Source of the DNA: Noviherbaspirillum sp. Root189
GTDB lineage: Bacteria; Pseudomonadota; Gammaproteobacteria; Burkholderiales; Burkholderiaceae_D
DNA length: 33,171 nucleotides
Assembly (NCBI RefSeq): GCF_001428545.1
Contig: NZ_LMHZ01000038.1
Coordinates: 1 to 33,171 of the forward strand
Direction: 5' to 3'
Shown one piece after another: positions 28,336 to 33,171 of this stretch. The notes below the pieces were generated by a model that was not told the DNA's origin, did not search any database, and saw only the letters and a program-made list of their open reading frames with translations. How positions within the stretch are numbered: position 1 is the stretch's first letter; the number at the start of each line of letters is the position of its first letter. Made by a program: the position numbers and the translations under genes.

Positions 28336-29133
28336 TTACGGCGCTGGGTGCGAACCCGCCTTATCGAGCAATATCTCGCTTAATCGATGCAACAGCATGT
28401 CAAGCAAATCGATTACCTGCTCCTGGCGCTGCAAATAATATTGCGCTGCCGTGTCAGGTGCATCTTCTATCCGTATCGTCAGAAGGTCCTCGCGAGGCAG
28501 TCTGAAAACCGACTCGTCGGTCACATCGTCACCAACATAAATAACAGACGGTGCCGAGATCGTGTGTCGCAGCATCTCCAGTGCATCACCTTTACAAGGC
28601 GCTCCGCCAGGGAGCACGTTGAATACGCATTTTCCATCGACAATCTCAGCATCGGGCAACTGCTGACGTATAAGCCGACGTAGCCGTGCTTCCGTACGGG
28701 ACAAGTCCTGCGCCATACGATAATGGATCGACAGTGAAAACGTCTTGTCCTCGATCCACGCTGCTGAAGCAAGGTCTTGCGCCTGCAGTGCGGCTTGCAA
28801 ACGTTTCAACCAGTCCTGACAAGTCAGGCGATAAAGTTCCTCTTGTGTTTCCTGGCCCGGCATCCCTTCGATACCATGATTACCGATCACATACTCCGGA
28901 AAGAAATCGAGCCGAAGACTGACATCCTCCACCGAGCGGCCGGTAATGACCGCTACAGGCGTAAACTCGGTCAATGCCGCCAGGCGGCGTAAAATCGGGG
29001 CAGGGATGCGTGCATCGGACGGATCGGCAACGATCGGAGCAAGCGTGCCGTCGAAGTCGAATGCACACAGCATGCCGGGTCGCACAAGCTCCAGCAGATC
29101 CTGAACTCCTTGATCAAAGAAGGGATTTGCCAT
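28336..29133 (-). CDS. otsB: Trehalose-6-phosphate phosphatase
   Basis: It removes phosphate from trehalose-6-phosphate to give the compatible solute trehalose. The HAD-fold motifs are in place over 265 residues: DFDGT (D26, D28, T30), TGR (motif II region), K181 and GDDVTDE (about 201-207). It starts two bases after the otsA stop, with its ribosome-binding site inside otsA, so translation is coupled. Length and motifs are normal and the enzyme should be active. Confidence 0.95.
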   Translation of the reverse strand: MANPFFDQGVQDLLELVRPGMLCAFDFDGTLAPIVADPSDARIPAPILRRLAALTEFTPVAVITGRSVEDVSLRLDFFPEYVIGNHGIEGMPGQETQEELYRLTCQDWLKRLQAALQAQDLASAAWIEDKTFSLSIHYRMAQDLSRTEARLRRLIRQQLPDAEIVDGKCVFNVLPGGAPCKGDALEMLRHTISAPSVIYVGDDVTDESVFRLPREDLLTIRIEDAPDTAAQYYLQRQEQVIDLLDMLLHRLSEILLDKAGSHPAP

Positions 29134-29135
29134 GA

Positions 29136-31394
29136 TCAGACCACGCGACGCAGAACCGGGCGATGATGCGTATCGATTCTCTGCATGACACGCTCACGTT
29201 TGCGCAGGCGCGCTGCATCTAAAAGCATATGTCCAGCCCAACGATAAACATTGAAGTCTTTCACAAGCGCCCGCATGCTGCGCATCCTCTCCTTTTGCTC
29301 GGCTTCCGGCATTGTCAGGGCCCGATATAAGGCCTCCGCGCTTTGCTCAATGTGGTAAGGATTGACAATCAGTGCTTCGTGCAGTTCACGCGCGGCGCCG
29401 GTGAACTGACTCAGCAGGAGAACCCCAAGTTCGTCGTAGCGTGAAGCAATAAACTCCTTCGCGACCAGGTTCATGCCATCGTGCAGGCTGGTGACCATGC
29501 AGACATCCGCCGCCCGGTAATACCGGTTGAGCTGATACTGATCATGATGTTCCGCCTTCAACAGGATGGGAACATAATTTCCTTGCGAGAAGCGCTGATT
29601 GATACGTAGCACCAGCGCCCTGACACGTGCCTCGAAGTTCTGGTATTCCTCCAGTGAGGACCTCGACGGTGCAGCGATCTGCACGAAGGTAAACTTGCCC
29701 ACCATGCCCGGATTCAGTTCAAGCATACGCTCTACGGCCTGAAATCGCTCAACAATACCTTTGGTGTAGTCCAGCCTGTCAACGCCAATACCCAGCAAGT
29801 GATCCGGCGGCAGTGCCAGCGACTTGCGGATATTGATCCTGCATTCGTTGCGACTCTCCGCGCTGACTTCGCCGGCACCGGGCCAGGCAATAGAAATCGG
29901 GTAATTTTCGACCTGCGTCAGCTTGCCGCCATGGGAAACGGTTGATGCCTCCGACTCGATACGGGTTTCCAGATAACGATCTACCGTTTCCAGGAAATTC
30001 TTGCGATGGAATGGCGTATGGAAGCCGAGAATAGTACTGCCCAGCATACCGGCAAGGATTTCCTCGCGCCACGGACAGATGCCGAAGGACTCGGGATTAG
30101 GCCACGGAATGTGCCAGAACGTGATAATGGTGGCGCGTGGCAGCACCTTGGAAATCATTTTCGGCAGCAAGGCAAAGTGATAGTCCTGCACCAGAATGAC
30201 AGGATCGTCGGTACGGGCCTCTGCAATGACGGCATCCGCAAATCGCTGATTCACTTTGACGTACTGTTCCCAGTCGGACGAGCGGAAAACCGGGCGCACG
30301 TGGGCAATATGGCATAGCGGCCACAAGCCTTCATTCGCAAAACCGTAGTAGTAGCCCTGCTCTTCTTCTTTTGAGAGCCAGACCCGGCGCAGCGTATATT
30401 CCGGCTGTTCAGGCGGGACCGGCACGCGATCATGCTTGTCCACCACCTTTTGATCGGCGCTACCGCTGCCATGCGCGATCCAGGTGCCCGAGCAGGCACG
30501 CATGACTGCTTCAACGGCGGTCACCAGTCCGCTCGCGGGACGGCTTACTTCGACGCCGTTGGCGGTTTCATTGTGGATGTAGGGCTCGCGATTGGATACG
30601 ACCAGGACCTCATCACCAGCGAGCTCGCCGCGCAATAACTCCCGGAGTCGCTCCGGCGTCCATGCTTGCTCGCCATCACGATGTCCCTGTCGCTCGCGGT
30701 GATATTCATGCAGCAGCGCACGCAGATCGCCTACCAACGGACTGACTTCCGGCGAAGGCCGCGCATGCGATGCTGGCAACAGTTCGCCGCGCAACAAGCC
30801 CCTGACACCATTTATCCACCCTCGCCAGCTCAGGTGCGCAACCGCGACGGTAATGAGCGAGATGACGATACCTAACAAGATGAAAAAGTAGATCACATAC
30901 TTCTTTGTGTCCGCACTCCGATGCTCGATAAAGCTCATATCGTGCACCAGCACCAGCTTACCGAAGGCTTCGCCTTCGCGGCTCATCACACTTTGCGCAA
31001 CATGAACCGGGCCTTGCGGCAGACGCACCAACGCCTTTTCGATGCCTTCCCTCGACGCTCCCGGCTCCTTGCATCCCAGTGAGGCCGGATAGGTTGACGT
31101 GGAATACAGAACACGGTCGTTCTTGTCGCAAAATGCCAGCGCATAAAGGCGCTCATCCTCGATGGCCTTGCTAAACAGGTGATTGATCTTGCCCTTTGCG
31201 CGTTGCGGCACGTAGTCGAGTAAAGGCTCTTCCAGTGTTGTGGCAAGCATCTTTGAACGAATGTCCAGATCGCGCACAAACCATCGCAATGTAAAGTTAT
31301 CCAGAAGCGGCACGACGACATACGCACCGAGCGCCAGGACCATGGCGAGAGGGACGACAAAACGCATCGACAGGCGAGTCCACTGCATCTTCAT
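29136..31394 (-). CDS. otsA: Trehalose-6-phosphate synthase with N-terminal membrane sensor-like region
   Basis: OtsA (GT20) joins UDP-glucose and glucose-6-phosphate. The catalytic half (about 261-735) has the key residues: R269 (SNRE), D404 (VQDYH), H428 (FWHIP), R540 and K545 (RLDYTKG), D639 (HDGMNLVAKE); the Gly-rich loop reads RPASGLVTA instead of the usual AGGL. In front is an extra part absent from E. coli OtsA (474 aa): membrane segment 1 (about 11-31), a periplasmic domain (32-165) with a Cys pair C89/C108, membrane segment 2 (166-188), then a HAMP-like stretch (about 189-245). This layout resembles a chemoreceptor or sensor-kinase input with an enzyme as output. It sits 14 bases after the MscS gene and two before otsB. 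Confidence 0.93.
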   Translation of the reverse strand: MKMQWTRLSMRFVVPLAMVLALGAYVVVPLLDNFTLRWFVRDLDIRSKMLATTLEEPLLDYVPQRAKGKINHLFSKAIEDERLYALAFCDKNDRVLYSTSTYPASLGCKEPGASREGIEKALVRLPQGPVHVAQSVMSREGEAFGKLVLVHDMSFIEHRSADTKKYVIYFFILLGIVISLITVAVAHLSWRGWINGVRGLLRGELLPASHARPSPEVSPLVGDLRALLHEYHRERQGHRDGEQAWTPERLRELLRGELAGDEVLVVSNREPYIHNETANGVEVSRPASGLVTAVEAVMRACSGTWIAHGSGSADQKVVDKHDRVPVPPEQPEYTLRRVWLSKEEEQGYYYGFANEGLWPLCHIAHVRPVFRSSDWEQYVKVNQRFADAVIAEARTDDPVILVQDYHFALLPKMISKVLPRATIITFWHIPWPNPESFGICPWREEILAGMLGSTILGFHTPFHRKNFLETVDRYLETRIESEASTVSHGGKLTQVENYPISIAWPGAGEVSAESRNECRINIRKSLALPPDHLLGIGVDRLDYTKGIVERFQAVERMLELNPGMVGKFTFVQIAAPSRSSLEEYQNFEARVRALVLRINQRFSQGNYVPILLKAEHHDQYQLNRYYRAADVCMVTSLHDGMNLVAKEFIASRYDELGVLLLSQFTGAARELHEALIVNPYHIEQSAEALYRALTMPEAEQKERMRSMRALVKDFNVYRWAGHMLLDAARLRKRERVMQRIDTHHRPVLRRVV

Positions 31395-31408: not shown

Positions 31409-32491
31409 TCAGGCGACCAGTTTTTCAGCCGCGTTGGAAATCTCTTCATTGGCAGGAGAAGGCGCGACATACAAGGTGCGTGTCGGATAGGCAAACGAGA
31501 TTTTTCGATCACGCAGTGCCGCGAGCAGACCAAGGTTGATTTCCTGCTGTATGTCCATGTATTTGTTGTAGTCCGGATCAAGCACGTAATACACCACTTC
31601 AAACAACAGGGCACTGTCTCCGTATCCCTTGAAATGCGCGCGGTCAAAGCGGGTCTCAAGATAACTTGCCGACACGATATCCTTGACCGTTTGCGGCAGG
31701 CGTTCGATTTCGGTCATTGGCGTTTCATACGCGATGCCGAACTCAAACAGCACACGCCGTTCCTGCATGCGCTTGTAGTTGCGTATGCGGCATTTCAGCA
31801 ATTCGGCATTGGAGAAGACGATCTGCTCACCGCCCAAGCTACGCAGACGGGTTGTCTTCATGCCCACGTATTCCACTGTGCCCATGTAGGAATCGACGAT
31901 AATGAAGTCGCCAATGACAAACGGTTTGTCCAAAGCGATCGACACAGAGGAGAAAATATCGCCAAGGATATTTTGCACAGCCAGCGCAACCGCAATACCA
32001 CCGATGCCAAGGCTGGCCATGATGGTCGTGATGTTGAATCCGAGATTATCCAGAACCACCAGCGCGGCGGTCGACCATAGAACGATGCGGCCAATGAGGC
32101 CGGCGATCATCAAGTGTGTCGCACTCGCCGGATCGCTCTGGCGCTGATAAATGAAGGAGCGCTGGACAGCGACCGCGATGATGCGGTTTCCCCACAGTGC
32201 GATCTGTGAGACAAGAATAATGATCCATGCGTAGTTCAGCCATTTTGCATGAAGAGCCGACAGCTCGGTCTGGCTAAAGCCGACGAGCAGTGCAATACCG
32301 ATGAAGAATGGCAGCCTCGTACCGGTTGTGATTTGTTCAGCATATTCAAGAAATGAAGGCTTGGCAGTTTTTGCCCGCTGTCGAAGCTGGCGTGCGATGA
32401 ACGCCTTGAGTAATAGCAGTGCGGCGAAAACCACCAAACCGGCGGTCACGGCGAGAGCCGCATCATAGGACACGAAGTCAAAGCTGGTCAT
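31409..32491 (-). CDS. MscS-family mechanosensitive channel
   Basis: MscS channels open under membrane tension to release solutes during hypo-osmotic shock. The 360-residue protein has several N-terminal membrane segments, then the pore helix region with the Gly/Ala pattern GIGGIAVALAVQNILGD, followed by the beta and C-terminal domains (DKPFVIGDFIIVDSYMGTVEYVG, RNYKRMQERRV). It is longer at the N-terminus than E. coli MscS (286 aa). The ATG at 32491 has AGGAG close upstream; the longer frame to 32563 lacks this. It leads the operon with otsA and otsB, so channel opening and trehalose synthesis may be balanced together. Confidence 0.92.
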   Translation of the reverse strand: MTSFDFVSYDAALAVTAGLVVFAALLLLKAFIARQLRQRAKTAKPSFLEYAEQITTGTRLPFFIGIALLVGFSQTELSALHAKWLNYAWIIILVSQIALWGNRIIAVAVQRSFIYQRQSDPASATHLMIAGLIGRIVLWSTAALVVLDNLGFNITTIMASLGIGGIAVALAVQNILGDIFSSVSIALDKPFVIGDFIIVDSYMGTVEYVGMKTTRLRSLGGEQIVFSNAELLKCRIRNYKRMQERRVLFEFGIAYETPMTEIERLPQTVKDIVSASYLETRFDRAHFKGYGDSALLFEVVYYVLDPDYNKYMDIQQEINLGLLAALRDRKISFAYPTRTLYVAPSPANEEISNAAEKLVA

Positions 32492-33171
32492 GGCAACTCC
32501 TGAAAAAATCATGCTGGCATCACCATGGTGGTCGGCGATCTTCCTGGCATGAGTGCTCGCCAACTATTGTCCCTTCCTGCTATGGGAAGAGACTGGCGGG
32601 AAATGGTTAGTGCAAGATGCGTTAAGGACGTTAAGGCCTCGCTGCAACGGCGCTTTTCTCTCTGATTAATAGAAAGAACAAGCGATAGATGATTGCCGGA
32701 TGGAAGCACAGACAGGACCGCAATTGCAGACCAGCGTGATTCTTCCTAACGCGGCGATCGTGCGTCCAGATGCTCACGACGACGCCTGTCAACAGGCGTG
32801 ACATGAACACTATCGAACTCGTCGTACAGCAGCACTTCTCGTCTTGAACTGTTTGGATGCCTTGCACTATACCTGCACTTGCTTAGGCCCAACTTAAGAG
32901 TCTTAACCGATCCGGCACATTGTCTTGCCGACATTGCGTCAGCGTAGACGACCCGTCAAATAGAGTGCCTTTTGAAATGGCACCCGCAGGGTGCGCCGAC
33001 AAAGACAGTACAGACCATACGATGAGAAGGCCCTATACCAACCCCAACCCCAACCCATAACGCGACAAGCGACATGTTGATTGATGGGATGGACTCCCTC
33101 CGTCTTTTTGCGCCAAAGTAGACGTACTGGTTCGCATGGGCATGGGGATCAACCAACAAAAGGAGTCCGTC
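32492..33171. other. Right-end region without a clear gene
   Basis: These 680 bases show no convincing coding frame. A weak sigma70-like pair on the plus strand (TTGAAC 32844-32849, 18 bp, TATACC 32868-32873) could start a plus-strand transcript. A set of competing hairpins (32965-32994), a short CCCAAC-type repeat (33038-33056) and a closing Shine-Dalgarno sequence follow, which together suggest the leader of a gene that begins just past the right edge. Confidence 0.4.
33160..33166 (+). promoter_or_regulatory. Shine-Dalgarno sequence for a gene starting beyond the right edge
   Basis: AAGGAG followed by TCCGTC ends the window; a start codon would be expected in the next few bases on the plus strand. 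The gene itself is outside, so this is inferred from spacing alone. Confidence 0.35.

Follow-up and report, generated by a model that had tools for sequence, protein, structure and literature searches.

A trehalose-6-phosphate synthase fused to a Cache-type transmembrane module, a probable receptor-enzyme of Noviherbaspirillum and its relatives

A stretch of 33,171 nucleotides from the soil bacterium Noviherbaspirillum sp. Root189 (C38:1-33171; genome assembly of 6.1 Mb and 90 contigs; hereafter the window) encodes a trehalose-6-phosphate (T6P) synthase fused to an N-terminal membrane module, in which two transmembrane segments enclose a periplasmic domain of the PDC/Cache sensor type and are followed by a cytoplasmic linker. 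The fusion is real and conserved, and the protein is probably a receptor-enzyme. Trehalose protects cells against stress, and bacteria are usually described as regulating its synthesis through transcription and through solutes of the cytoplasm. The layout and topology of the fused protein, its sensor fold, its intact active site, the co-location with otsB, the conservation of the arrangement and the purifying selection on the sensor were all established by computation.

Gene, operon and catalytic domain

The open reading frame assigned to the fused protein in the original prediction was found exactly where it had been placed, on the minus strand, and encodes one protein of 752 amino acids. Its parts and its neighbours are as follows.

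29136..31394, minus strand: sensor-fused T6P synthase; open reading frame of 752 aa from an ATG, GT20 match of 400 bits, 81 relatives alike
31302..31367, minus strand: first transmembrane segment (TM1), residues about 10-31; hydropathy in 82/82 sequences, within a continuous model helix 3-61
30915..31295, minus strand: periplasmic sensor domain of PDC/Cache type, residues about 34-160; the main family conserves Cys89 and Cys108
30834..30902, minus strand: second transmembrane segment (TM2), residues about 165-187; hydropathy in 82/82 sequences
30612..30833, minus strand: cytoplasmic linker, residues 188-261; a weakly HAMP-like part and a helix with invariant Trp245 joined to the first GT20 strand
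29217..30611, minus strand: GT20 catalytic domain, residues 262-726; Pfam PF00982, active-site residues aligned to E. coli OtsA
28336..29133, minus strand: otsB, trehalose-6-phosphate phosphatase; PF02358 at 88 bits, TIGR00685 above its cut-off
31409..32563, minus strand: MscS-type mechanosensitive channel gene; PF00924, PF21082 and PF21088, TTG start as listed mechanically

In the window otsB starts 2 bases downstream of the fused synthase and the MscS-type gene ends 14 bases upstream of it on the same strand, and the three genes look like an operon.

The 400 bits of the PF00982 match compare with a curated cut-off of 32.5. The active site of E. coli OtsA, which we take to consist of R10, G23, Y77, W86, D131, H155, R263, K268, R301, D362 and E370 (gene numbering), was aligned from the K-12 protein to R269, G289, Y349, W358, D404, H428, R540, K545, R578, D639 and E647 of the window protein. 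These counterparts are invariant in 55/55 relatives, which bears out the claim that all the main catalytic residues remain and rules out a pseudo-enzyme. The protein does not reach the cut-off of the NCBIfam trehalose_OtsA equivalog (TIGR02400; 421.6 bits against 564.85), and in a quick tree with long branches between the GT20 classes the fused family forms a branch of its own. A glucosylglycerol-phosphate synthase is less likely, the score being 298 bits compared with 422 for OtsA (neither above cut-off) and otsB lying downstream. From the active-site residues and the linkage to otsB we infer that the fused enzyme makes T6P.

Seven other GT20 proteins from the same family-level group (L092-L098) carry a HAD-phosphatase-like part before the GT20 domain, as judged by reading the sequences, ie a domain order the reverse of TPS-TPP; we take these to resemble GgpPS.

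Topology and fold of the N-terminal module

Transmembrane segments were scored with a 19-residue Kyte-Doolittle window and a threshold of 1.6 in the window protein and 81 relatives (n = 82). Both hydrophobic segments, at residues about 10-31 and 165-187, exceed the threshold in 82/82 sequences, and the stretch between them exceeds it in only one of the 82; chance hydrophobic stretches are thereby ruled out. Averaged over 85 rows, the net charge is +2.4 before TM1, +0.1 after TM1 and +2.5 after TM2, a pattern that fits the positive-inside rule and hence assigns the GT20 domain to the cytoplasm. The substrates UDP-glucose and glucose-6-phosphate are located on this same side. The two membrane segments around a periplasmic domain of about 130 residues that had been predicted are thus present, with approximately 133 residues facing the periplasm between them.

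AlphaFold2 folds the periplasmic residues with block pLDDT values of 88-96, except for 62 at residues 111-120, and TM1 lies inside one continuous helix covering residues 3-61. The predicted periplasmic part finds its best structural matches in the extracytoplasmic PAS/Cache (PDC) sensor domains of WalK, LuxQ, CusS, CitA and DcuS, and in the predicted structure the PDC fold fills the extracytoplasmic region between the two transmembrane helices. Comparison of the modelled N-terminal region with known sensor folds, proposed earlier as a check, therefore gave a confidently folded domain with PAS/Cache (PDC) proteins as its top matches.

No sensor-kinase, Cache or HAMP model matched the window protein in the profile scans, and in Pfam the only matches beside GT20 were sub-cut-off glycosyltransferase matches over the same region. 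In contrast to the window protein, some relatives did match sensor-kinase profiles by sequence, and in a few of them the kinase models align collinearly into the linker; seven of 20 chosen relatives had N-termini with no match at E <= 0.1. From the Cache clan of Pfam, CHASE4 was matched in 5/55 relatives (best E 0.0015) and sCache_4 in 1/55 (E 0.21). The profile of the N-terminal module also matched a histidine-kinase-like frame (L088, a kinase by sequence reading) at a weak 19.9 bits, which would fit a receptor origin weakly. Several further matches were set aside. The Pfam model Adeno_E3B, found in 27/55 N-termini at E <= 0.1 and in the window protein below cut-off over the TM2 helix, was taken as a hydrophobic-helix match; a module-profile match of 19.3 bits to L149 falls on a PAS/kinase-like part and was taken as chance; and a search of PDB sequences with the N-terminal profile returned two matches, the better at E 0.082, neither of them sensible.

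Linker

The linker (residues 188-261) had been called HAMP-like. AlphaFold2 predicts helical parts around a low-confidence gap, and the model carries little confidence in this region. At E <= 0.1 the Pfam HAMP model (PF00672) matched the N-terminal region of none of 55 relatives; of a divergent pair of relatives, L147 scored 12.8 bits against a cut-off of 25 and L148 had no match. For hhalign a HAMP reference was assembled from 21 such segments of the Noviherbaspirillum genome, with 19 control segments that included the reversed linker. Against it the family linker gave p 0.0098 over 39 columns (best control 0.033) at a probability of only 4 percent, and p 0.036 and 0.016 against the separate halves of the reference, which matched each other with 99.7 percent probability. 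The linker of L147/L148 gave p 0.0011 over 44 columns and a probability of 21 percent (best of the 19 controls 0.071); adding this pair to the family profile brought no improvement (p 0.018). The description survives in a reduced form: given the weak profile match and the collinear sensor-kinase alignments in a few relatives, set against the absence of Pfam HAMP matches, the linker appears weakly HAMP-like and is not called a HAMP domain.

The same genome contains two stretches of tandem HAMP matches, one of 11 in a 2100-aa open frame (C78:139129-142044) and a second of nine (C5:45420-47780).

Within the linker P219 is kept in 87/87 sequences. In the helix that follows, W245 and L250 are likewise kept in 87/87 and L254 in 85/87. 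The first GT20 strand continues from this helix and is closely followed by R269, the counterpart of a substrate-site arginine of E. coli OtsA. The end of the linker is retained in sensor-less relatives.

Conservation and selection in the sensor

Mean conservation of the periplasmic part peaks at its membrane-proximal ends and along the first strand, and reaches its minimum in the loops at 91-127. Many of the most conserved positions (W38, D42, R46, D152, S154 and R159) are membrane-proximal, on both helices; the charged residues D42, D152 and R159 occur in 87/87 sequences and R46 in 86/87. C89 and C108 are the sole periplasmic cysteines in 85/85 main-family rows. The pair is ruled out as a universal feature by its absence from the divergent L147 and L148.

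Selection on the periplasmic domain is purifying. Among the 25 most alike of 47 close pairs, dN/dS of the periplasmic part ranged from 0.016 to 0.41 in the 22 pairs with finite dS, usually above the value for GT20 yet well below 1; in the pair formed by the window protein and L003 the periplasmic part is saturated. Conservation across several phyla together with this low dN/dS shows that the N-terminal module is not a product of chance, and the same two features, with the in-frame position of the module, rule out an annotation artefact or wrong start.

Distribution and natural variants

Relatives were taken from the best 80 of 585 loci encoding one, with N-terminal peptides among the search patterns, which biases the set towards fused forms. 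Both transmembrane segments are present in all 80 and in a second copy from the same genome (L001). The family search that had been suggested thus found the layout recurring in 81/81 relatives examined (715-786 aa), from several phyla. Fused forms occur in Burkholderiales, other betaproteobacteria, Geobacter, Syntrophaceae, Nitrospira, Acidobacteria, Gemmatimonadetes and Bdellovibrionota/Oligoflexia, many of them as metagenome-assembled genomes (MAGs). Cloacimonadota were not counted as a further phylum: the protein concerned, from a MAG (L032), equals that of a Geobacter MAG (L030) at 734 of 744 positions and may reflect a binning error.

Counts with less of this bias were also made. In the family group of the window GT20 was matched in 65/116 genomes and the module profile in 42/116, two of the latter (G343, G356) covering only the end of the module. 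A phylum sample gave GT20 in 81/299 genomes and a module match in 6/299, the six including the genome of the window itself, a kinase-like frame (G138) and a match to the linker only (G194). In the phylum of a Nitrospira genome the module was matched in 14/100. Of 50 genomes selected because they carry the fusion, 36 show just one GT20 match, a count that may be overstated as many of the 50 are MAGs of unstated completeness. Both GT20 genes of the Noviherbaspirillum genome carry the sensor module; the second (L001, on C78) has its own otsB and a ROK-cluster gene downstream.

Three proteins of the same catalytic branch (L100, L101 and L102) keep the W245 helix and are without TM1, sensor and TM2. 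In the quick tree they fall among module-bearing Oxalobacteraceae/Burkholderiaceae rows, L102 on a long branch, a placement that suggests more than one loss of the sensor. Since these sensor-less relatives keep the catalytic unit, the enzyme probably works without the sensor. Two others of this enzyme branch, L110 from the same phylum and L146 from an Aminobacter plasmid, have one hydrophobic segment and the linker end without a periplasmic domain, which would suggest that membrane placement may itself matter.

Genomic context in relatives

An otsB homolog was present in 71/81 loci and directly downstream (within 300 bases) in 68/81; three of the ten loci lacking it have less than 150 bases of downstream sequence. 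Gene neighbourhoods were clustered in 71 loci, the other ten of the 81 being dropped because simple gene calling had not picked up the fused gene there, and by this stricter measure an otsB-like gene is next in 40/71. A GH15 trehalase-like gene lies within four genes in 33/71 loci (eg L005 and L057), on either strand and either side, suggesting that synthesis and breakdown of trehalose may be paired. An MscS cluster lies within four genes in 6/71, directly upstream in three (L050, L060 and L072) and nearby in L024, L044 and L078. These neighbour families were confirmed on two GH15 and three MscS representatives. By tblastn, MscS was matched in 6/81 loci, in two of them (L024 and L072) over about 268 residues at 47-51%. 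With adjacency this sporadic by either method, MscS is ruled out as a constant partner. The Noviherbaspirillum genome has five MscS-type and two otsB matches.

Discussion

The reading we favour, and hold to be somewhat better than an even chance, is that the protein is a one-component transmembrane receptor-enzyme whose Cache/PDC-type periplasmic domain tunes T6P synthesis. By analogy with Cache receptors, a periplasmic signal would move TM2 against TM1 within a dimer. The HAMP-like linker would relay the state of TM2 to the conserved helix W245-L254, movement of which would displace the first strand of GT20 together with its substrate loop and so tune T6P synthesis; OtsB would then convert T6P to trehalose. 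Every step of this relay is proposed by analogy. We infer in the same way that the sensor controls activity and that a dimer carries the signal, and the direction of control and the nature of the signal belong equally to the model. At best, the signal may be osmotic, related to desiccation or related to the envelope.

The original prediction of a one-protein osmosensor fared unevenly. A receptor-type sensor fused to a T6P synthase stands on the fold, topology, conservation, selection and the weak matches of relatives to sensor kinases. Direct gating of the enzyme by that sensor is a reasonable proposal, whereas osmolarity or tension as the signal is a guess. The product and the linkage to otsB would point to osmotic or desiccation protection. 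A direct osmotic or membrane-tension gate, the narrower form of the receptor-enzyme reading in which the input is not a chemical ligand, could draw on the Cache domain carried by the yeast osmosensor Sln1 (PMC4822843), on this osmoprotective product, on the conserved membrane-proximal residues and on the MscS channel gene upstream in the window. However, membrane-proximal conservation is expected for signal transmission under any input, PDC/Cache domains usually bind small ligands, and trehalose also serves against desiccation, cold and other stresses. The predicted fold is typical of ligand-type extracytoplasmic sensors, and the membrane-proximal conservation neither proves nor excludes a mechanical input; overall we regard such a gate as quite improbable.

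The N-terminal part might instead only hold the synthase at the inner membrane, eg near OtsB or MscS, with the periplasmic fold as a non-sensing leftover or assembly platform. The main evidence for such an anchor or scaffold is the one-segment forms L110 and L146. MscS is the immediate upstream neighbour in the window, as in 3/71 gene-called relatives, and an operon of Thermoproteus tenax unites tpsp, a glycosyltransferase and an MscS-like gene (PMC3634074). Yet an anchor needs no intact receptor-type fold with invariant charged residues across several phyla, periplasmic dN/dS is low and MscS adjacency is rare, and we judge this explanation rather unlikely. A redox or envelope-stress input, with Cys89-Cys108 as a thiol switch and not a structural disulfide, appears highly improbable: exactly two cysteines in all 85 main-family rows would suit a switch, but a structural disulfide accounts for the identical pattern, and L147 and L148 have kept the layout without either residue.

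Several known systems come close. With E. coli OtsA the protein shares the GT20 family, the active-site residues and the otsB alongside; OtsA differs in having 474 aa and starting at the GT20 domain, and the window protein is on another branch of the tree. With the Cache/PDC receptor histidine kinases WalK, CusS, CitA and DcuS and with LuxQ it shares, by structure and by weak collinear matches of some relatives, the order TM1, PDC fold, TM2 and HAMP-like linker, whereas its output is a GT20 enzyme of central sugar metabolism and not a kinase, chemotaxis or cyclic-nucleotide output. Cache domains are reported to co-occur with signal-transduction outputs, SMP_2 excepted (PMC4822843). The tpsp-gt-msc operon of T. 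tenax resembles the window in the co-location of a T6P synthase with an MscS-like channel gene, but there the proteins are separate, the TPS carries a fused TPP and a distinct glycosyltransferase brings about activation; the passages of PMC3634074 used here mention no sensor domain in the synthase. In Ramlibacter tataouinensis TTB310 (Rta_36480-36500) a TPS lies beside TPP and a candidate GH15 trehalase, an arrangement also seen in relatives of the window protein, and that TPS, known here from its description, is given no sensor or membrane part in the passages of PMC3164672 used. Other members of Ramlibacter are among the fused relatives (L064, L065, L073 and L074). Among the matches listed from the open-access literature, no description of a T6P synthase fused to a sensor or membrane part was found. 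What is new is the combination of two known kinds of module; the kinds themselves are not.

Whether such one-protein receptors are widespread, with a Cache-type sensor allosterically gating T6P/trehalose synthesis without kinase, second messenger or transcription, and as the only T6P synthase in many genomes, we consider an evenly balanced question. Sensor-less and one-segment relatives (L100, L101, L102, L110 and L146) are natural controls without the sensor, and the fused synthase could serve as a simple system in which to test transmembrane signalling, since its product is easy to measure. If true, a conserved receptor-enzyme would connect the cell surface directly with the making of a compatible solute, and would extend the known outputs of Cache receptors to primary metabolism.
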